A stretch of DNA of 16,226 bases, taken from contig JAGDBH010000130.1 of NCBI GenBank assembly GCA_017959135.1, positions 1-16,226 on the forward strand, read 5' to 3'. Origin of the DNA: Succinivibrio sp. (lineage in GTDB: Bacteria > Pseudomonadota > Gammaproteobacteria > Enterobacterales > Succinivibrionaceae). Positions 2,035-11,170 of the stretch are shown one piece after another. The translations under genes and the position numbers were made by a program. The number at the start of each line of letters is the position of its first letter. The first letter of the stretch is position 1. A model generated the notes under the pieces. It had not been told where the DNA came from, did no database searches, and saw only the letters and a list, made by a program, of their open reading frames with translations.

Positions 2035-2064
2035 ATTATAATACATCTTTCAGATATGTGAAAT
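2035..2064 (-). promoter_or_regulatory. Candidate lpxC promoter
   Basis: A perfect TATAAT -10 hexamer (2035-2040 read on the minus strand) lies 27 bases upstream of the lpxC ATG. The hexamer 17 bases further upstream, TTTCAC, is a poor -35. A better TTGACG (2066-2071) sits 25 bases away, which is too far for a standard sigma-70 promoter. Since the upstream gene ends in a terminator, a promoter in this 244-base gap is expected. The choice of this -10 is by eye. Confidence 0.4.
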
Positions 2065-2218: not shown

Positions 2219-2246
2219 AAAATAAAGGTCAGCGACAGCTGACCTT
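2219..2246 (-). terminator. Rho-independent terminator after ftsZ2
   Basis: Immediately after the ftsZ2 stop, a perfect 9-base stem (AAGGTCAGC / GCTGACCTT) with a four-base loop is followed on the minus strand by TTTATTTT. This separates ftsZ2 from lpxC transcriptionally. Confidence 0.85.
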
Positions 2247-2251
2247 AGTGT

Positions 2252-3457
2252 TTAGAATTCATTACGTGAATTTAAGATTGGAGGAAGATTCCATGCATCA
2301 GTTGACTGTCCCTGATTGCTTCCTGAATTTCCGCCTGTCTCATAGATTCTTGTTGATTCTGTCTGAGAAACTGTCTGAGTCTGAGCATTATCATGGAACA
2401 TTGCAGCCTTGTTAGCCTCTCTTTCATTCAGAGAGTTCAGCTCCCTTCTTGCCATATTGGCAGGCTTTCTAGGATCAACAGCACTGATACCTGCAATCAG
2501 AAGAGTCAGAGAAACCTCATCTTCTGCCAGATTCTCATCAAAGAAGATACCGGTCTTGCAGTCAGCATCCTCATCAGCGTATGCCTGAATTGCAGAGCAG
2601 ACATTATCAAGCTGAATAATTGGGAAATTAGGATTAATCTTCACATAGGCCATGACACCCGATGCAGACTTGATATCAACCTGATCAACCAGAGGAGAAT
2701 TGATAGCCTTGTCTACGGCATCCTCAACCATGTTAGGACCTTTACCAAAACCGTTGCAGATTACAGCATGACCTCTGCCGCGCATGATGGTTACCACATC
2801 AGCAAAATCAAGATTGATAAATGCTGGAACTGTAATTGCGTCTGTAATGCCTCTTACAGCATTTAAAAGAACATCATTTGCACATTCAAATGCCTTGATA
2901 ATGGCAATATTTGCTCCAAGATTACGTAGAAGCTTATCATTATCAATTACAATCAGAGAATCCACGTTCTTTGAAAGCTCGGTAATACCTGACTCGGCAT
3001 TTACAGCATGACGCTTACCCTCAAAGGTAAATGGCTTGGTTACCACTGCTACAGTTAAAGCACCTACTTCCTTTGCAATCTGAGCAATAATTGGAGCTGC
3101 TCCTGTACCGGTACCACCGCCCATACCAGCGGTAATAAAGATCATATCTGCGCCCTGAAGAAGCTTTTTGATATCTTCAGCGGATTCTTCAGCAGCCTTT
3201 CTTCCCTTGTTAGGATCACATCCTGAACCAAGACCGCTTGTGAGTTTAACGCCAATCTGAACCTTGATGTCTGAAGTAGATCTGGTTAGAGAATTGGCAT
3301 CTGTGTTTACAGCAATAAATTCAACATTCTGCAGACCATTATCAATCATGTGCTGAATGGTATTGCATCCACCGCCACCAACACCGACAACGATAATCTT
3401 AGCGTTGTATATTTTATTTGTTTCAGTAGAATCCTGTACTGAATAATCGTCGCTCAT
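2252..3457 (-). CDS. ftsZ: Second cell division protein FtsZ (FtsZ2)
   Basis: This is a complete 401-residue tubulin-like GTPase of the FtsZ family. It has the T1 loop VGVGGGGCN (24-32), the GTP signature [12 protein letters not shown] (111-122) and the catalytic T7 loop NLDFAD (215-220, with N215, D217 and D220). Both nucleotide binding and hydrolysis residues look intact. By eye the core is about three quarters identical to the other FtsZ at 6113-7465. The variable linker is short and S/T/Q/N-rich, and the tail WNLPPILNSRNEF replaces the usual gammaproteobacterial DIPAFLR-type peptide. The ATG at 3457 is chosen because GGAG lies six bases upstream and the family alignment begins soon after; the frame stays open a further 14 codons upstream without family similarity. 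The gene is flanked by terminators on both sides, so it is probably monocistronic. Its role beside a normal ftsZ is unknown; a modulator of the Z-ring or a stage-specific copy are both possible. Confidence 0.95.
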   Translation of the reverse strand: MSDDYSVQDSTETNKIYNAKIIVVGVGGGGCNTIQHMIDNGLQNVEFIAVNTDANSLTRSTSDIKVQIGVKLTSGLGSGCDPNKGRKAAEESAEDIKKLLQGADMIFITAGMGGGTGTGAAPIIAQIAKEVGALTVAVVTKPFTFEGKRHAVNAESGITELSKNVDSLIVIDNDKLLRNLGANIAIIKAFECANDVLLNAVRGITDAITVPAFINLDFADVVTIMRGRGHAVICNGFGKGPNMVEDAVDKAINSPLVDQVDIKSASGVMAYVKINPNFPIIQLDNVCSAIQAYADEDADCKTGIFFDENLAEDEVSLTLLIAGISAVDPRKPANMARRELNSLNEREANKAAMFHDNAQTQTVSQTESTRIYETGGNSGSNQGQSTDAWNLPPILNSRNEF

Positions 3458-3630
3458 GGCAATCTCCAAAAAATAAGTACTCATCCTTAATAGTAGCACT
3501 CAAGTCTTAAAACAGACATAGCGTAATCTCAAAAAAAATTGAGTAATATCATAATTTTGTTAAAAAATCTTCTAAAACTTACGTTTTGACTGACTTTGTT
3601 CCAAACTGTCTCACCCCAAAACACGTCCCC
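3458..3630 (-). promoter_or_regulatory. Leader region of ftsZ2, promoter expected
   Basis: This A+T-rich gap lies between the terminator of the binding-protein unit and the ftsZ2 ribosome binding site. Because a terminator precedes it, ftsZ2 needs its own promoter here. A TATGAT -10-like hexamer with a weak TTTAGA 17 bases upstream can be read on the minus strand, but nothing is close to consensus. A small inverted repeat CTCAATTTTTTTTGAG (3528-3543) lies further downstream in the leader. It lacks a T-tract after it, so it is not a terminator. Confidence 0.3.
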
Positions 3631-3669
3631 ACAAAAAGAAACCTCCACTTTTTTGGAGAAGCGGAGGTT
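3631..3669 (-). terminator. Rho-independent terminator after the binding-protein pair
   Basis: On the minus strand, AACCTCC pairs with GGAGGTT (7 bases). After one mismatch, a further CTT/AAG extends the stem around a T/G-rich loop. The hairpin is followed by TCTTTTTGT. It begins five bases after the stop codon of the gene at 3675-4763. Confidence 0.8.
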
Positions 3670-3674
3670 GTTCT

Positions 3675-4763
3675 TTATAGTTCATCGAAGTATTTTTTTG
3701 CCATTTTTATATATTCGTTATTGATGTACTTCTGAGATTTGATTCTGTTACTTATCTGAATATCGTTTGTATCAAGACTCTTAAGTACAATCAGCGTATT
3801 GCTGGTCAGATCCTTCTCCAGATTCTGTATCCAGCTTCGACGGTGTCCCTGATGCTCAAAGAGCTTTATCTGTTCCTCAAGAGAGGTTACATGATGCTTC
3901 TTCAGATCCTCAAGACATTCCTGTTTTGTATATTCCTTACCAGACAGCTGCTTGTAGAAAAGCTGATAATCATCAACAAGAGAATCAATATCATCTATCT
4001 GAATCTGCAAAGCCTTAAAGTACATTGCCAGGAACTTGGCAACAAGCTCAGGGTTCTCGTGAGCAAACTTCTCATCGACCTTGATTGTGCATGGAACAAC
4101 CTCACCCAGCTGCTCGGCAGTTACAACTTCCTTATAGCCAAGCTTTAAGGCATCATTCAGATCAGGAGACCATAATGCAGTACCGTAGTACTTGTTTTTC
4201 TTAAGCTCATCCATGATATCTGAATCCGGGAACTTAGACAGCTTGACGTCATTTAAGTCTAACCCGAAAATTTCAAGCCACCTTGCCAGTGTGTAGATGG
4301 CAGATGAAACGCCTTTAACAGCAAATGTCTTTCCCTTAATGGACTCTGGTGAACCATAAACCTTTGGAAAATACTCATCATAACCCTGAGTTTTAAAGAC
4401 ATCACTATCAGCCAAAGCTAAAACAGAATTTGCAGCAGCCTCATCATTGGCGACAGCGATAACTTCAACAAATACATCCTTTCCCCCCATAATAAATGGA
4501 ACATGGCTTGTACAGGTAATATCCCATGAGTTTCGGTCGTGGCGATACTGTTTCATCAGTGCAAGACCGTTATAGTTGGCTATGGTCAGATCAAGCTCAA
4601 AGCCAAGCTTTTTGTCCCATTCCTTCTGTTCAGCATACCACAGCAGGAATCCCTCATGCTCTAACAGAAAAGTAGCCTTAATCTTTGGTAGATCTGCTGC
4701 GCTGCAGACGAAGCTTAACATCAGAGCAAAGACACACAATACTTTTGAAATAAACCTGTTCAT
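3675..4763 (-). CDS. ABC-type substrate-binding protein, NMT1/THI5/SsuA-like (second of pair)
   Basis: This 362-residue exported protein has an N-terminal signal peptide, MNRFISKVLCVFALMLSFVCSA, with likely cleavage before ADLPKIKA. The cysteine at position 20 does not sit in a proper lipobox, so a soluble periplasmic protein is more likely than a lipoprotein. It has the layout of periplasmic type-2 binding proteins such as ThiY, SsuA and TauA: an opening beta strand then LEHEGFLLWYA (34-44), VYGSPESIKGKTFAVK (135-150) and GTALWSPD (194-201). The C-terminal section after about residue 280 is longer than usual and helical-looking. The start ATG follows GGAG by eight bases. The gene is 15 bases downstream of a paralogue that it matches at roughly 40 percent by eye. 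No permease or ATPase gene is nearby. The ligand cannot be told from sequence; sulfonates, pyrimidines or nitrate-like compounds are family options. Confidence 0.8.
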   Translation of the reverse strand: MNRFISKVLCVFALMLSFVCSAADLPKIKATFLLEHEGFLLWYAEQKEWDKKLGFELDLTIANYNGLALMKQYRHDRNSWDITCTSHVPFIMGGKDVFVEVIAVANDEAAANSVLALADSDVFKTQGYDEYFPKVYGSPESIKGKTFAVKGVSSAIYTLARWLEIFGLDLNDVKLSKFPDSDIMDELKKNKYYGTALWSPDLNDALKLGYKEVVTAEQLGEVVPCTIKVDEKFAHENPELVAKFLAMYFKALQIQIDDIDSLVDDYQLFYKQLSGKEYTKQECLEDLKKHHVTSLEEQIKLFEHQGHRRSWIQNLEKDLTSNTLIVLKSLDTNDIQISNRIKSQKYINNEYIKMAKKYFDEL

Positions 4764-4778
4764 ACACTGCTCTCCAAA

Positions 4779-5882
4779 CTACTTCTTAAGGTTAGACAGT
4801 ATTCTTCGTGCCTGCTTTAGATATCTGTCTGTAACATATCGTGGATTCTTGACCTGTTTTGCAGTCATTGCATAATCATTGGTATGACTGTCATACAGGA
4901 TCAGCATCAGACTACTTGCAATGGTAGATTCAAGTCTCTGAATAGTGCTCTTTCCAGCTCCCTTTCTTTCAAACAGTTTGAGCTGAGTTTCAATAGGCAT
5001 GACAGAATGACGCAGAATGTCGTACTCACAGAATTCCTTTGAGAATTCCAGCTGGGAATACTTTCTTAAGAATTTCTGATAATCCTTGGTCAGAGAACGA
5101 GGATTTTCAATCTGGGTTTCTACAGCTAAAAGGTAGGCAGCCAGCATTTTTGAAATTACTTCCTCATGATCCTCGCAATACTCCTTATCAACAAGGAACA
5201 TCATAGGGATTTCGGCCTCAACATCATCAGCGGTGGATACAAGCTTAAAGCCTTTATTCTCTGCATGGTAGGTATCAGGTGACCAAATAGCAACAGCATC
5301 AACCTCTCCGCGCTCAAGAGCCTTTATGCTTTCCTTACCTGCGAGATCGACAATCTTGATGTCAGAATAATCCAGATCGAAGATTTCAAGATATTTAACC
5401 AGCATGTAGGCGCCAGAGGTTAATGGCTTAATAGCGAAGGTCTTTCCCTTGATAGTTTCAGGAGAACCGTAGACGTCCGGATAATCTTCATTCCAACCTT
5501 TAACCTTAAGAAGCTCACTATCAGCATTTGTATAAATACCGGTGGTGTTAGCCTCATCATTTGCAACACCAACGATTTCAAGAGGCATCTGGTTGGTACC
5601 GACAATCAGAGGAATACTGGTTACACAGGTTACATTCCAACTCGAAGGATCCTGACGGTGACGATTCATAAGGTCTATACCGTTTGTATCCAGAATAGTA
5701 AGGTCAATATCAACCCCTACCATCTTATCAAAGCCCTGTTTTACCGCATACCACATCAAAAAGCCCTCATGCTCCATAAGCATGGTTACCTTAATTCTAG
5801 GCAGGTCAAATGACCAGGCCTGCATTGTTCCAAAGAGCAACAGAATAACGCCAAATACTATCCTTTTTAAACAAGAATACAT
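4779..5882 (-). CDS. ABC-type substrate-binding protein, NMT1/THI5/SsuA-like (first of pair)
   Basis: This 367-residue exported protein is paralogous to the next gene in the unit. The signal peptide is MYSCLKRIVFGVILLLFGTM followed by QAWS, with cleavage probably near FDLPRIKV. Shared landmarks are MEHEGFLMWYA (36-46), VYGSPETIKGKTFAIK (137-152) and VAIWSPD (197-203). These match the fold pattern of ThiY/SsuA/TauA-type periplasmic binding proteins, which normally deliver a ligand to an ABC importer. The ATG at 5882 is preferred over an in-frame TTG at 5897 because AGGAGG lies four bases upstream of it and the codons before it do not belong to the signal peptide. The gene lies alone with its paralogue between two ftsZ copies, bounded by terminators on both sides, and has no transporter partners. 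The substrate is unknown. Conservation of the pocket motifs in both copies suggests both bind related ligands. Confidence 0.8.
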   Translation of the reverse strand: MYSCLKRIVFGVILLLFGTMQAWSFDLPRIKVTMLMEHEGFLMWYAVKQGFDKMVGVDIDLTILDTNGIDLMNRHRQDPSSWNVTCVTSIPLIVGTNQMPLEIVGVANDEANTTGIYTNADSELLKVKGWNEDYPDVYGSPETIKGKTFAIKPLTSGAYMLVKYLEIFDLDYSDIKIVDLAGKESIKALERGEVDAVAIWSPDTYHAENKGFKLVSTADDVEAEIPMMFLVDKEYCEDHEEVISKMLAAYLLAVETQIENPRSLTKDYQKFLRKYSQLEFSKEFCEYDILRHSVMPIETQLKLFERKGAGKSTIQRLESTIASSLMLILYDSHTNDYAMTAKQVKNPRYVTDRYLKQARRILSNLKK

Positions 5883-5929
5883 GACGCCTCCTAACAAAGA
5901 TTATTACAAAAAAAAACCTACGCTAATTA

Positions 5930-5958
5930 AGTATAGAAACAAAAAATTGCACAAATAT
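5930..5958 (-). promoter_or_regulatory. Candidate promoter of the binding-protein pair
   Basis: In the 230-base gap after ftsZ1, the best -10 on the minus strand is TATACT (5930-5935), 47 bases before the start codon at 5882. No good -35 lies 16-18 bases upstream, where the sequence is A+T-rich. A promoter is expected because a terminator (6052-6083) closes the ftsZ1 transcript. The exact site is uncertain. Confidence 0.35.
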
Positions 5959-6051
5959 TTATGTAGTACGACTTTTGCAGGTATGATCAAAAAATCTTTG
6001 TGACAGAGACTAAGAAAACAAAAAAAAGAGAGAATTCAAAAAGAAACGGGC

Positions 6052-6083
6052 AAAAAAAGTTCCCAGACCGAAAGGCTGAGAAC
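6052..6083 (-). terminator. Rho-independent terminator after ftsZ1
   Basis: On the minus strand GTTCTCAGCC, a TTTC loop and GGTCTGGGAAC form a hairpin with one G-T pair and one bulge, followed by seven T residues. It lies 29 bases after the ftsZ1 stop and marks the end of the distal dcw operon. Confidence 0.85.
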
Positions 6084-6112
6084 TTTATTTATTAACTTAA
6101 TAAGGAAACTGT

Positions 6113-7465
6113 TTATTCTGACTTAGAGCGAAGAATTGGAGGAAGATTCCATAAATCGTCCTTTGAATCCTCAACAGGGCTCTTTCCAAAAGTATCAACA
6201 GGAACTTCAGCAATTTCATTCACATTTCTGAAGGTTGGCTCCTGAGGATTTGCAGAACCGAAGCCAGATGAGAAGCTGTTCTGACGAGAGAATCCTGAAT
6301 TATCCATCTGTGCAGACTGATTCTGCTGATTCTGAGATGACTGAGAATTCTGACGCTGGAAGCCAAAATTGTTATTGTTAACATTGCCGAAGAAGTTTGG
6401 CTTTGCAGCCTCTCTTGCAGCACCCTGAGCAATCTGAGAACGAGCCTTGTTGGCTGGGTTGTTGGTATCGGTTGCACTGATACCGGTGATCAGAATGGTA
6501 ATAGATACCTGATCCTCAGAAATTGACTCATCGAAACTCATACCAAACTTGCAATCTGCTTCCTCATCAGCATAAGACTGAATTGCGTTACAGATTTCTT
6601 CCCACTTGGTAATTGGGAAGTTTGGATTTACGCGAACGTTAGCTAACAGACCAGCTGCTGACTTGATATCAACCTGCTCAATCAGAGGAGAATGAATTGC
6701 TCTGTCAACTGCGTCCTCAACAAAGTTAGCACCCTGACCAACACCGTTACCGATCATTGCATGACCACGACCACGCATTACGGTTACAACGTCAGCGAAG
6801 TCAAGGTTAATAAAGCCAGGATTGGTGATTGCATCGGTAATGCCCTTAACTGCATTTAACAGAATGTCGTTAGCAGCATTGAAAGCATTAACAATAGAAA
6901 TATTTGCACCAAGATTCTTTAACAGCTTGTCATTATCAATAACAATCAGAGAATCAACGTGTTTTGACAGCTCGGTAATACCTGACTCGGCATTAACCAT
7001 GTGACGCTTGCCTTCGAACTTGAATGGCTTGGTTACAACAGCAACGGTCAGAGCACCAGTCTCCTTTGCAATCTCAGCAATGATTGGAGCTGCACCTGTA
7101 CCGGTACCACCGCCCATACCAGCAGTAATAAATACCATGTCAGAGCCCTGAATCAATTTCTTGATATCTTCCTTGGACTCTTCAGCAGCCTTGCGGCCCT
7201 TGTTAGGATCACAGCCTGCACCCAGACCGTTTGTTAACTTAACACCAATCTGAACCTTTAAAGGTGAGGTTGAGTTAACCAAAGCCTGAGAATCTGTATT
7301 TACAGCGATAAATTCCACACCCTCAAGGTTCTCATTGATCATGTGCTGCAGTGAGTTACCACCGCCACCACCGATACCAAGAACTCTGATAACGCAAGAA
7401 CCGGATGGTGTAATTGTGGTTCCTGCACCTGCATTTGCTACTGACTCAACACGAAAATCGCTCAT
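6113..7465 (-). CDS. ftsZ: Cell division protein FtsZ (dcw copy, FtsZ1)
   Basis: FtsZ polymerises under the membrane at mid-cell and recruits the divisome. The 450-residue product has the T1 loop GIGGGGGN (30-37), the GTP signature [12 protein letters not shown] (116-127) and the T7 catalytic loop NLDFAD (220-225, with N220, D222 and D225). After the core, from about residue 340, there is a long linker very rich in Asn, Gln and Ser, for example [20 protein letters not shown]. This makes the protein longer than E. coli FtsZ (383). The last residues, [14 protein letters not shown], occupy the place of the peptide that binds FtsA and ZipA but differ from the common DIPAFLR core. The ATG at 7465 matches the family N-terminus and has a GCAGAGAG upstream. 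The gene follows ftsA, its usual neighbour, and its transcript ends at a terminator, so this is the orthologous dcw copy. Confidence 0.97.
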
Positions 7466-7583: not shown

Positions 7584-8966
7584 CTAAAGCTCTCTGGAGA
7601 TCCAGTCGGCAATAGTTTTAATAAAGCCAGTGCTTTTTGTTCCTTTTTCATTACGCTCATCATCAGTGTACTGCTTAAGATCATCAAATCTTGCTGATCT
7701 TAATAATCCTATTGCAACAGCCTTATCTGAATCTGAGATAACCTCAGGTGCACCTGCATTTTCAAACAGACCAATACCAATTGGATGACCAACTCTTACC
7801 TTGGTATTGCACTTTAGGAATGTATTATCCTGGAAGTTGTAATCACGAACCCACTCTGAAAATACCTGCTCAATACCAGGCAGTTTTGAAGTACCACCGG
7901 TAAGAACAATACCGCCACCAATCTCAAGGCTCTTTAGGGTTGAGCTGCCATAGAAGTTGATGCGCTGGAAGATAAGCTCACACATGCTTCTGATACCGCG
8001 ATTGATAACATCTGCAAGAGTGCCGTTACGAACAGCGACCTCATTTGAACTTACCTGAGTAGTGTTAGACTCATTGTCTGGAATTCTGATGGAAATATTT
8101 GCGCTATCCTCGCTTAGGAACTTGGAATCAGCACATCCGTAATTACATTTGATGTATTCAGCGTTATTCATGGAAATTGAGAATTCCTTGGCAATCATCT
8201 TGGTGATGTAATTGCCGCCGTCATCAATACCAAAAGATAACAGCTGACGTTTGCCCTCGTAAACTGTAACGTTAACAGTACCGCCGCCGATGTCAATGTG
8301 AATAACACCGATTTCTTTCTCTGCATCAGTTAAAACTGCGCTTGAAGCGGCATTACCGGCATAAATGATTGAGCAGACATCAAGATCAGGATTAGTCATT
8401 CTGATGGCTTTCTCAATATTGTTCTTGAACATGAAGCTGCAGCCGATCACATGAACACTTGCTGATAGACGCTTAGCGTACATGCCGATAGGATTGGTTA
8501 CCTGTTCTGAGCTTTCTGTTGCATACTGCTGAGGGATAGCATGAATGATTGAATAGTCGGCAGAATTGAATTTCACACCTGCCATAGCCATTCTTACAGC
8601 CTTATTACGATCTGATTTTTCAATTGTACCTGACTGGATTGTAGAGTGACCCTGCTGATTTTCAGCAACAACGAAACATCCAGGAACCCCGGTTACAATC
8701 TTCTCGATGGTAACGCCATAGGTTTTCTGATAATCCTGAATCAAATAGGCAATCTGTCTTGCTAGGCTGTTAATATCGGAAATATGTCCCTGAACCATAC
8801 CCTGACTGACACATTCTCTCATGCCCTGAATCTTAATCTGCTTGTTTGGTTCAACTATGCCTGAGACGAGACGAATGTAAGAACTACCAATATCCAGCGC
8901 ATATATCTGCTGTTCAGAATCACTGATAGTTACAGGACTATTTCCTTTCTTTTTCATGATTGCCAT
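7584..8966 (-). CDS. ftsA: Cell division protein FtsA
   Basis: FtsA is the actin-like ATPase that tethers FtsZ to the inner membrane and recruits later divisome proteins. Actin-fold motifs are in order: ALDIGSSYIRLVSG (23-36), HAIPQQYA, then VIHIDIGGGTVNVTVYEG as the second phosphate loop, and GGGIVLTGGTSKLPGIEQVF as the adenosine motif. The C-terminus, TGFIKTIADWISREL, is the amphipathic membrane-targeting helix, comparable with SWIKRLNSWLRKEF in E. coli. At 460 residues it is longer than E. coli FtsA (420). The extra length comes from about 15 residues at the N-terminus and small insertions in the second half. The ATG at 8966 follows AAGGGGA by about six bases. It begins 12 bases after ftsQ and precedes ftsZ1, the classical order. 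Confidence 0.96.
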   Translation of the reverse strand: MAIMKKKGNSPVTISDSEQQIYALDIGSSYIRLVSGIVEPNKQIKIQGMRECVSQGMVQGHISDINSLARQIAYLIQDYQKTYGVTIEKIVTGVPGCFVVAENQQGHSTIQSGTIEKSDRNKAVRMAMAGVKFNSADYSIIHAIPQQYATESSEQVTNPIGMYAKRLSASVHVIGCSFMFKNNIEKAIRMTNPDLDVCSIIYAGNAASSAVLTDAEKEIGVIHIDIGGGTVNVTVYEGKRQLLSFGIDDGGNYITKMIAKEFSISMNNAEYIKCNYGCADSKFLSEDSANISIRIPDNESNTTQVSSNEVAVRNGTLADVINRGIRSMCELIFQRINFYGSSTLKSLEIGGGIVLTGGTSKLPGIEQVFSEWVRDYNFQDNTFLKCNTKVRVGHPIGIGLFENAGAPEVISDSDKAVAIGLLRSARFDDLKQYTDDERNEKGTKSTGFIKTIADWISREL

Positions 8967-8978
8967 AAAAAAGTCCCC

Positions 8979-9734
8979 TTAATTCTTCTTATTATCTTCC
9001 GATGCAGGTTTCTTTCCTACAGCAAACCCGACATCATATCTTAAATCCACATACTCAACGTCATTTATATCCAGTCCTGAATGTTTAAATGAGCGTATGA
9101 ATCTTTTTAATCTTTCAATTCCATCTTTCTGACCACGCCCTAAAATAAGCTTGGTTCCATTATCAAGTGTTATTGTATAACAACGGACATTATCAAGATA
9201 TAACTCAATCATCTGATATGGGGAGTCCGTCATAACTCTGATAAAAGATACTGCACTGTCATATACATCTGTGCACAGATTGTCTCTGTAGGCACCAAGT
9301 TTTACCAGAGGAAGAGCAAAGTTCGACATGTCCGGATAAAAAATGCTTCTGGTCTTAGCATCATAGATACCGTTGTCATTCCAGTAAGCAGCAGGAACAT
9401 GTTCAATCACAGAAAGAATCAGAGTGTCAGGCATTTTCTTCTGAATTGCAACCTGAGCAATCCAAGGCTCCTTCAAAAGCTCCTGCTTTAGAACCTTGAC
9501 ATCTAAAGTTGCAATGTTCTGTCCGGCACACACTCTTCCTGTGATATCAGCTATCTTCTTTTTGGTCAGATTTTTGAAAACTCCGTCAATCTGTACTGCC
9601 TTTACAGGGAGTGCATTTGACTGAGAAAGAAAGTGCTTGATTAAGAGATCACCTTTAACAACAAGACCCAGCAGAAGCATCACAAAAATGATGCCTGCGA
9701 TAAAATAACCGCGGCTGTGTCTTTTTTTAGACAT
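8979..9734 (-). CDS. ftsQ: Cell division protein FtsQ
   Basis: FtsQ is a bitopic inner-membrane protein that links early and late divisome proteins through FtsB and FtsL. The 251-residue product has a short basic cytoplasmic N-terminus (MSKKRHSRG), one membrane segment at about 10-26, then a POTRA domain beginning at LPVKAVQIDG (42-51). The POTRA region includes LKQELLKEPWIAQVAIQKKMPDT-like sequence, typical of the family, with P and W placed as in other FtsQ proteins. The rest is the periplasmic beta domain, including LDNGTKLILGRG and ERLKRFIRSF. The ATG at 9734 is preceded by AAGGA five bases upstream, overlapping the region of the murC stop eight bases away, which suggests coupling. In E. 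coli ddlB lies between murC and ftsQ; no such gene is present here. Confidence 0.93.
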   Translation of the reverse strand: MSKKRHSRGYFIAGIIFVMLLLGLVVKGDLLIKHFLSQSNALPVKAVQIDGVFKNLTKKKIADITGRVCAGQNIATLDVKVLKQELLKEPWIAQVAIQKKMPDTLILSVIEHVPAAYWNDNGIYDAKTRSIFYPDMSNFALPLVKLGAYRDNLCTDVYDSAVSFIRVMTDSPYQMIELYLDNVRCYTITLDNGTKLILGRGQKDGIERLKRFIRSFKHSGLDINDVEYVDLRYDVGFAVGKKPASEDNKKN

Positions 9735-9742
9735 GGTGTTCC

Positions 9743-11170
9743 TTAAACTTTTTCAAACAGTGTAGAAAGATTTCTTGCAACCTGAACTACGTTACCTGCA
9801 CCCTGTGTCAGCAGTAGAGCTCCATCATCCAGAAGATTCTCCAGAAGCTCTGGAACCTCGTTTACAGACTCTACAAAGTGAGGCTCAATCTTGCCCTTTA
9901 ATCTGATGGACATGCACAGATGTCTGCCGTCAGCACCGGCGATTGGTTCTTCACCTGCAGGATAAACATCAACCAGCACCAGCTTGTCTACCAGCTGAAG
10001 CACTCTTACGAAGTCCTCATAGCAGTCACGGGTTCTGGTATAACGATGAGGCTGGAATACCATAACCAGCTCTTTATCAGGATATGCAAGTCTTGCAGCC
10101 TTGATGGTTGCTTCAACCTCAGTTGGATGATGTCCGTAATCATCCACAAGAGTAATAACCTTACCAGACTTGGTCTTGAAGTTACCGTAATTCTGGAATC
10201 TGCGTCCAACACCCTTGAAGTTCTTTAGGGCTTCAACGATTACAGACTCTTCAATACCGGCCTCAACAGCAACTGCAACTGCAGCAGCTGCATTCTTAGC
10301 CATGTGAATACCTGGAACAGGAAGTTCAATGCTTAGAGGAGCATGCTCTTTTCTTACAACCTTGAACTCACTTCTTGGGCCAACTTCCTTGAAGTCAACA
10401 ACTCTGAAATCAGCCTTCTCAGATTCACCATAGGTAACCACGGTACGACCGATCTTAGGAATGATTTCCTTAACGTTAGGATCATCCAGGCAGACTACGG
10501 CAACACCGTAGAATGGAAGATTGTGCAGGAATTCAACGAAGGTCTTCTTCAGACAGTTGAAATCACCGCCATAGGTATCAAGATGATCTGGCTCAATGTT
10601 GGTTACAACGGTCATCATTGGCAGCAGATGCAGGAATGATGCATCAGACTCGTCAGCCTCTGCAATCAGATAGTTTCCGGTTCCTAATCTTGCGTTGGTG
10701 CCGGCACTGTTTAACAGACCGCCAATCACAAAGGTAGGATCAAGCTTAGCCTGAGCAAAAATTGAAGCAATCAGAGAGGTAGTTGTGGTTTTACCGTGAG
10801 TACCTGAAATTGCGATGCCGTTTCTATAACGCATCAGCTCACCTAACATCTCTGCACGACGAACTACAGGAATATGAAGCTCTCTTGCTCTATGAATCTC
10901 TGGATTATCCTCATGAATAGCAGAGGATACAACAACTACTGATGAGCCGTTAACATTGTCTGCAGCATGACCGATGAATACGGTAATGCCCAGTTTTTCC
11001 AATCTTTCTGTTACTTTTGACTTAGCGATATCAGAACCTGAAATGGTATAACCACGATTCAGAAGAACTTCTGCAATACCGCACATACCGGCACCACCGA
11101 TGCCGATGAAATGGATCCTCTTTACTTTATGCATCAGAGGAACTGAATGAATATTATTGGTTGTTGTCAT
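9743..11170 (-). CDS. murC: UDP-N-acetylmuramate--L-alanine ligase MurC
   Basis: MurC adds L-alanine to UDP-MurNAc using ATP, the first peptide-forming step of peptidoglycan precursor synthesis. The 475-residue product aligns along its length with E. coli MurC (491). Visible motifs are [17 protein letters not shown] (20-36, nucleotide-sugar domain), the ATP loop GTHGKTTT (123-130), [11 protein letters not shown] (170-180), [15 protein letters not shown] and DDYGHHPTE (342-350), followed by [14 protein letters not shown]. The ATG at 11170 has only a weak A-rich leader without a clear Shine-Dalgarno sequence; ATG at codon 13 would also keep the whole domain but is no better placed. It begins 33 bases after murG and ends eight bases before ftsQ, within one operon. 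Confidence 0.97.

Follow-up and report, generated by a model that had tools for sequence, protein, structure and literature searches.

We find that the division and cell wall (dcw) gene cluster of a Succinivibrio sp. encodes two paralogues of FtsZ, which forms the ring at cell division and is usually a single, essential and dosage-sensitive protein in bacteria. The evidence supports two paralogues that are both under selection, apparently functional and provided with what look like separate transcription signals. The stretch analyzed here, called the window, is a whole contig of 16,226 nucleotides (G000:C95) from an assembly of 1.79 Mb in 381 contigs that is 87% complete. The two genes, here named ftsZ1 and ftsZ2, lie as follows.

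6113..7465, minus strand: ftsZ1, the ancestral-type FtsZ of 450 amino acids, adjoining ftsA (Pfam domains, motifs)
2252..3457, minus strand: ftsZ2, the derived FtsZ of 401 amino acids, with the conserved C-terminal peptide (CCTP) WNLPPILNSRNEF (Pfam domains, motifs, substitution ratios)

Two FtsZ proteins under equal constraint

A sequence-only reading of the window had seen two complete ftsZ genes on the same strand, with about three quarters of core residues in common and the GGGTGTG and T7-loop motifs kept in both. Our comparison bears this out: the two are encoded on the minus strand, both proteins contain the motifs, and the cores are identical at 234 of 319 residues (73%) and 88% similar. 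Both proteins also match the Pfam Tubulin and FtsZ_C families, FtsZ2 scoring 170 bits for PF00091 and 49 bits for PF12327, both above cut-off. The pair is present in five close genomes, namely G000 (the window's own), G003 (taken to be ACV-10), G009 (taken to be DSM 3072), G010 and G014. In all five, FtsZ2 has GMGGGTGTG as its T4 loop, NLDFAD as its T7 loop and the C-terminal tail WNLPPILN, the FtsZ1 tail being WNLPPILR. The linker spans 67–69 residues in FtsZ2 versus 112–117 in FtsZ1 in the three of these five genomes that were measured (67 versus 112 in the window).

FtsZ2 keeps 160 of the 172 columns in which at least 95% of 39 FtsZ1-type sequences agree, and 71 of the 72 columns that are also identical in a solved FtsZ of E. 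coli type and in eight FtsZs from genera with a single copy. The sole universal column lost is Gly226 (E. coli numbering), which is Cys in all five FtsZ2 proteins; among the matches listed, 41 of the first 42 homologues have Cys at this position, and the other 78 all have Gly. The exception, P0040, comes from a 1.9 kb contig and joins an FtsZ2-like start to an FtsZ1-like end, and P0042, for which no contig is given, is the reverse chimera, with an FtsZ1-like start and an FtsZ2-like end; these are either true recombinants or chimeric assemblies. Because FtsZ2 is 73% identical to FtsZ1 and clearly matches solved FtsZ chains, its fold is hardly in doubt, and by every sequence mark it is a genuine bacterial FtsZ.

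We compared rates of nonsynonymous and synonymous substitution (dN and dS) by Nei–Gojobori counts. Across the five genomes, the mean dN/dS is 0.055 for ftsZ1 and 0.054 for ftsZ2, with 0.031 for ftsA, 0.048 for ftsQ, 0.024 for murC and 0.032 for murG; across four genomes it is 0.042 for lpxC, 0.038 for ampD and 0.075 for SBPb, a neighboring gene described below, whose companion SBPa was saturated. ftsZ2 is under strong purifying selection, with a constraint equal to that on ftsZ1. This comparison of the copies, which the earlier reading had proposed, shows no relaxed selection on ftsZ2, and the value of 0.054 rules out a pseudogene or decaying copy.

The second copy is also not an artefact of assembly. 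The assembly to which the window belongs is fragmented, as misassembly or contamination would have it, but the same pair occurs in the cultured isolates DSM 3072 and ACV-10 and in G014, a single contig of 3,468,545 bases, and we regard misassembly, contamination and decay as refuted. The nearest named relatives of FtsZ2 are those of S. dextrinosolvens DSM 3072 (98%), ACV-10 (94%) and isolate RUG260 (93%; genome_contigs), and among the matches listed, 37 homologues besides the window's own protein (together P0001–P0038) are at least 79% identical over at least 96% of the query. ftsZ2 lies between ftsZ1 and lpxC in four of the five close genomes; in the fifth, DSM 3072, the contig ends soon after ftsZ2.

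Within genomes, the two paralogues are separated by a dN of 0.27–0.29 and a dS of 1.26–2.22. Orthologue dS for both genes is 0.16–1.04, and because the paralogue dS exceeds every orthologue value, the duplication predates the five species. The divergence is one-sided. With three outgroup rows from other genera (237 core columns, G000), FtsZ2 alone changed in 35 columns, FtsZ1 alone in 3 and both in 6; eleven outgroup rows (173 columns) give 18, 1 and 3, and a single row (312 columns, G000) gives 56 for FtsZ2 alone and 8 for FtsZ1 alone. The other four genomes have the same one-sided counts within one or two columns. Measured against the eleven-row outgroup, FtsZ2 carries 21 changes in 173 columns in each of the five genomes, and 17 FtsZ1-type rows of the genus carry 1 to 10. 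An outgroup of four congeners (270 columns) gives 54 changes on FtsZ2 alone and 0 on FtsZ1 alone, a count that is biased if the congeners sit on the FtsZ1 side. Judged from these alignments, nearly all post-duplication change fell on FtsZ2, and FtsZ1 kept the ancestral form.

Recurrence of second FtsZ copies in the family

The sequence-only reading had taken one ftsZ as the norm for Gammaproteobacteria; in Succinivibrionaceae, additional matches recur. Searched with FtsZ2 (query, window 2255–3463, whose two extra upstream codons are too few to matter), 54 of 56 family genomes have a match and 22 have two or more. All 22 belong to genera g1 (Succinivibrio), g2, g4, g9 and g13, and the 15 genomes of g5–g8, g10 and g11 have at most one FtsZ match. 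Nine of the 19 genomes of g1 have two or more matches, nine have one and one has none, some of these genomes being incomplete. Among 60 genomes from the rest of the order, 4 have a second match; that of G088 is a continuation of the same gene, and the best of the remaining three is 45% identical.

We fetched loci from 47 further genomes. Of the 22 multi-match genomes, 18 have an extra copy within the dcw cluster that forms a tandem with the first ftsZ, on the lpxC side or, in two of the 18 (G008 and G030), with the ftsA side taken by the more divergent copy; the stretches fetched for G021 and G036 do not include lpxC itself, and the order in G049, G053 and G054 is partly inferred across contig ends. 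The other four genomes (G006, G019, G039 and G044) have extra matches elsewhere only. Extra FtsZ genes with both domains lie at L118:7934-9085 (G006), L150:7851-9254 (G039) and L154:8116-9258 (G044), and the fetched stretches around these three contain no dcw gene. Genus g2 has arrays that go beyond the usual gene: we count five FtsZ-like matches in G053 (L161:5573-11547) and nine in G054 (L162:2515-11733 and L163:118-2177), most of which are divergent, and some of which have stops in frame or lack the usual motif of the GTPase loop. One open frame of 731 amino acids (L161:6762-8957) matches Tubulin and FtsZ_C twice each, and this double sequence is also listed for a contig of 3,868 bases that may come from the same sample; another double frame, of 834 amino acids (L162:7207-9711), has two Tubulin stretches and one FtsZ_C.

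FtsA is found once in 54 of the 56 family genomes (E ≤ 1e-15), ZipA once in 52 and MinC once in 49, and none of the three is found twice in any of the 56 at the thresholds used. The MinC C-domain scores 34–63 bits in genera g1–g4, g9 and g12–g14, which have derived FtsZ, versus 82–104 bits elsewhere, with G034 (58 bits) as an exception; the system that sets the division site may have changed along with FtsZ.

To the question of when the pair arose, for which the earlier reading had proposed an FtsZ tree, the dS values above give the answer that the duplication predates the five species; the pair is no isolated case, given the 22 family genomes with more than one match, and the 15 second copies tested do not form one clade. 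The tree was built from 59 of 81 FtsZ sequences (22 fragments, array members, very long branches and a near copy were omitted, and archaeal rows are absent), and its bootstrap values are not fully settled. The five S. dextrinosolvens-type FtsZ2 proteins make up a clade of their own (100/100), with a stem of 0.91; the second copies of g4 plus one of g13 form a separate clade (93/95), and those of G036, G008 and G040 are placed elsewhere. The approximately unbiased (AU) test rejects a common origin for the 15 second copies (p 0.0007, 15 rows against 44), and likewise rejected is a grouping of the 13 second copies of g1, g4 and g13 (p 0.0005), with the proviso that the copies were grouped after the first tree had been seen, that long branches are present and that gene conversion could mimic the rejection. 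The seven g1 second copies come together in the best tree, weakly (70/95), so that one origin for them is neither shown nor rejected. We favor repeated ftsZ duplication in the family as the reading of these trees; repeated gene conversion after one duplication could also account for them.

Transcription signals and neighboring genes

The features around the two ftsZ genes, including those bearing on their transcription, are as follows.

7584..8966, minus strand: ftsA, one match in the genome (Pfam, genome search)
6056..6086, minus strand: ftsZ1 terminator, a hairpin followed by a T-run (−16 kcal/mol for a 58-nt piece, z −4.2)
4779..5897, minus strand: SBPb, an NMT1/THI5-like substrate-binding protein of 372 amino acids, a passenger between the ftsZ genes (Pfam)
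3675..4763, minus strand: SBPa, an NMT1-like substrate-binding protein of 362 amino acids (Pfam; 38% identity to SBPb)
3640..3669, minus strand: terminator-like hairpin after SBPa, upstream of ftsZ2 (z −3.8)
3539..3564, minus strand: conserved upstream block 1, AT-rich, a candidate regulator or UP site of ftsZ2 (cross-genome conservation)
3489..3515, minus strand: conserved upstream block 2, with the extended −10-like TGCTACTAT at 3498–3490, the probable ftsZ2 promoter (cross-genome conservation)
2225..2246, minus strand: ftsZ2 terminator (−14.3 kcal/mol, z −4.1; kept in five aligned genomes)
2035..2062, minus strand: promoter-like site of lpxC, TTCACA-16-TATAAT, 11/12 (consensus match only)

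A hairpin and T-run ends each of ftsZ1, SBPa and ftsZ2. The terminator and probable promoter that the sequence-only reading had assigned to ftsZ2 both gain support, the former from its retention across the aligned genomes and the latter from two conserved upstream blocks, not from the consensus scan alone. ftsZ1 likewise has a terminator of its own, absent from that reading; it was missed by the consensus scan, and a hairpin is visible by eye at the same place in the other four aligned genomes. In the three relatives that keep SBPa, a hairpin of different sequence follows it, again by eye. Because the scan of the region performs about as chance would (16 promoter-like sites found versus 12.9 expected; five terminator-like versus 4.1), the case for ftsZ2 control signals rests on conservation.

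Both upstream blocks are kept even where the remaining gap upstream of ftsZ2 is scrambled or lost. Each occurs once in each of the five ftsZ2-bearing genomes, block 1 with 0–2 mismatches and block 2 with 0–1, and neither is present in five other Succinivibrio genomes (G002, G004, G008, G011 and G015) when searched at up to three mismatches. Block 1 is identical at 25 of 26 positions between G000 and G014, against a neutral expectation of 0.49. In four comparisons at a neutral identity of ~0.5, the chance probability of such conservation is 1e-5 to 2e-8 per pair, with sites taken as independent and the blocks chosen after inspection. At the end of block 2 is TGCTACTAT, which we take to be an extended −10-like site. 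We considered a leader peptide of 10 codons ahead of ftsZ2, which in four of five genomes ends at a stop, and set it aside; the three substitutions in block 2 would all be non-synonymous in such a peptide, so that block 2 is likelier a DNA element. Together these signals point to ftsZ2 as a separate transcription unit. Codon adaptation is 0.68–0.78 for ftsZ1, 0.61–0.65 for ftsZ2, 0.57–0.65 for ftsA and 0.67–0.70 for lpxC, against a background median of 0.55 (0.46–0.73) for 24 open reading frames (ORFs), which suggests moderate expression of ftsZ2, lower than that of ftsZ1 but real.

The listed ORF of ftsZ2 begins at GTG 3499. ATG 3457 is preceded by TTGGAG and gives 401 amino acids, also the listed length of the window's own protein and of several close homologues, and is most likely the translation start.

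The dcw cluster runs on the minus strand in the order mraY, murD, ftsW, murG, murC, ftsQ, ftsA, ftsZ1, two NMT1-type genes, ftsZ2, lpxC and ampD; the eight genes from ftsQ to ampD were searched with Pfam, and mraY, murD, ftsW, murG and murC were named from their translations and gene order. No ddl lies between murC and ftsQ (window 9734–9743), the place it usually has in E. coli. SBPa and SBPb (window 3675–5897) have no permease or ATPase gene alongside. Of nine Succinivibrio genomes searched, the five of the S. dextrinosolvens group have four to seven matches each to their family, and the other four have none. We dropped them as candidate partners of FtsZ2: they belong to this multi-copy family, and in DSM 3072 they are missing from the ftsZ1–ftsZ2 gap, so that the two ftsZ genes are adjacent. 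In G014, a TnpB-type gene (L125:7898-9127; OrfB_IS605, Cas12f1-like TNB domain) lies between ftsZ1 and SBPb, and the gap seems to collect insertions. In DSM 3072, a group II intron (L120:12871-13123; RF02001, 130 bits; RF01998, 36 bits) lies shortly 3′ of the ftsZ2 terminator.

Possible roles and meaning of the second FtsZ

Cells with two FtsZs are already known elsewhere, and the dcw-embedded duplicate described here belongs to a pattern within its family. PMC12343686 describes chloroplast FtsZ pairs that co-assemble, the core of the derived FtsZ enhancing turnover of the other. The chloroplast FtsZ1/FtsZ2 of the green lineage and FtsZA/FtsZB of red algae are paralogues from lineage-specific duplication as here, and their division into one slow and one fast paralogue is also found in our pair (35 versus 3 of 237 columns). 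The settings differ, a plastid there and a bacterial cell here, as do the tails, which are unlike each other in plants and carry a CCTP on both proteins here, and the duplications are separate; FtsZ1 and FtsZ2 of Succinivibrio would therefore resemble the chloroplast pair in working only and are not members of it.

Archaeal FtsZ1/FtsZ2 (Haloferax, Odinarchaeota) are likewise two FtsZs per cell with divided roles, anchored through SepF, according to PMC12583498, and that pair is ancient, from before archaeal diversification, according to PMC9871819. Our FtsZ2 is not archaeal-type: both copies nest with Succinivibrio FtsZ, the nearest named homologues are from Succinivibrio, and FtsA and ZipA are present. 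PMC9871819 also states that few bacteria have two ftsZ genes and that the extra copy lies outside the dcw cluster, as in Bipolaricaulota, whereas it lies inside here. Agrobacterium and Sinorhizobium are Proteobacteria with more than one FtsZ (PMC13170164, PMC4414408); in A. tumefaciens, only one of three FtsZs is full length with linker and tail (PMC13170164). The truncated extra FtsZs of rhizobia lack linker and C-terminal peptide, unlike FtsZ2, which is full length with both. The earlier statement that such a pair is undescribed in this lineage agrees with our search, which found no account of one in Succinivibrio or Succinivibrionaceae in the open-access literature, most subscription literature being outside it.

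We propose, with moderate confidence, that FtsZ2 acts as a minor Z-ring subunit that tunes FtsZ1. ftsZ2 would have arisen by duplication of ftsZ inside the Succinivibrio dcw cluster, and its product, made in smaller amount than FtsZ1, is predicted to bind GTP, polymerize and, by way of the tail that it has kept, enter the same filaments as FtsZ1, tethered by FtsA and ZipA, with FtsA as the expected membrane anchor for both tails. Its share of the ring would be set by its own promoter, and its shorter linker and altered core could change ring turnover or curvature. We count in favor of this proposal the equal dN/dS, the 71 of 72 columns, the intact T4, T7 and CCTP and the one-sided divergence, and further the private upstream blocks, the terminators, the one match each for FtsA, ZipA and MinC where found, the codon adaptation, the shorter linker and the chloroplast precedent. 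Several points weigh against it. In plants, the derived FtsZ partner has a changed tail and lacks the tether; because both tails are kept here, a shared ring is only one reading. Nine of the 19 genus genomes, some of them incomplete, have one match, so a second FtsZ is dispensable for division as such. The codon index, moreover, takes one ribosomal operon (G014) as reference, and its 24 background ORFs are unverified as genes.

The same private upstream region and separate terminators would also suit a protein that replaces FtsZ1 under certain conditions, forming its own Z-ring in a growth state with little FtsZ1, such as slow growth or stress, and rarely mixing with it. FtsZ2 keeps the parts for a complete ring, CCTP included, but its codon use is above the background median and its core conservation makes mixing hard to avoid; neither objection is strong, and we think this reading possible but rather unlikely. 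We consider it unlikely that FtsZ2 merely duplicates the work of FtsZ1, retained only to raise or buffer total FtsZ. High identity, the same motifs and the same constraint fit such a role, and gains of dosage can recur, as duplications seem to here, yet it leaves unexplained the 35 versus 3 one-sided changes, the Gly-to-Cys replacement (41 of the first 42 versus none of the other 78 matches listed) and the shorter linker. Succinivibrio cells are curved or helical, which would fit a filament outside division, serving for instance cell shape or curvature. Some other FtsZ-family paralogues have left division, as PMC12583498 reports. Such a role is nonetheless quite improbable for FtsZ2, which retains the tail expected to bind FtsA and ZipA; 9 of 19 genus genomes have one FtsZ match only, and the window contains no recognized shape gene.

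With ftsZ2 close to ftsZ1, under strong selection and behind a conserved control region of its own, a two-part bacterial division ring becomes a testable possibility. A family in which ftsZ duplicates where it stands, one copy hardly changing and the other diverging under equal constraint, and in which no second FtsA, ZipA or MinC was found, offers a natural series on what a second Z-ring subunit may do. Succinivibrionaceae are also an exception to the statement, in PMC9871819, that extra bacterial ftsZ genes sit outside the dcw cluster. More tentatively, and as a possibility that we would not yet lean toward, this family may repeatedly evolve multi-component Z-rings, through in-place dcw duplication, co-polymerizing specialized copies, arrays of up to nine FtsZ-like stretches and a fused double-FtsZ frame. 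If true, bacteria would here have a natural counterpart to the way in which α/β-tubulin and plastid FtsZ pairs arose.

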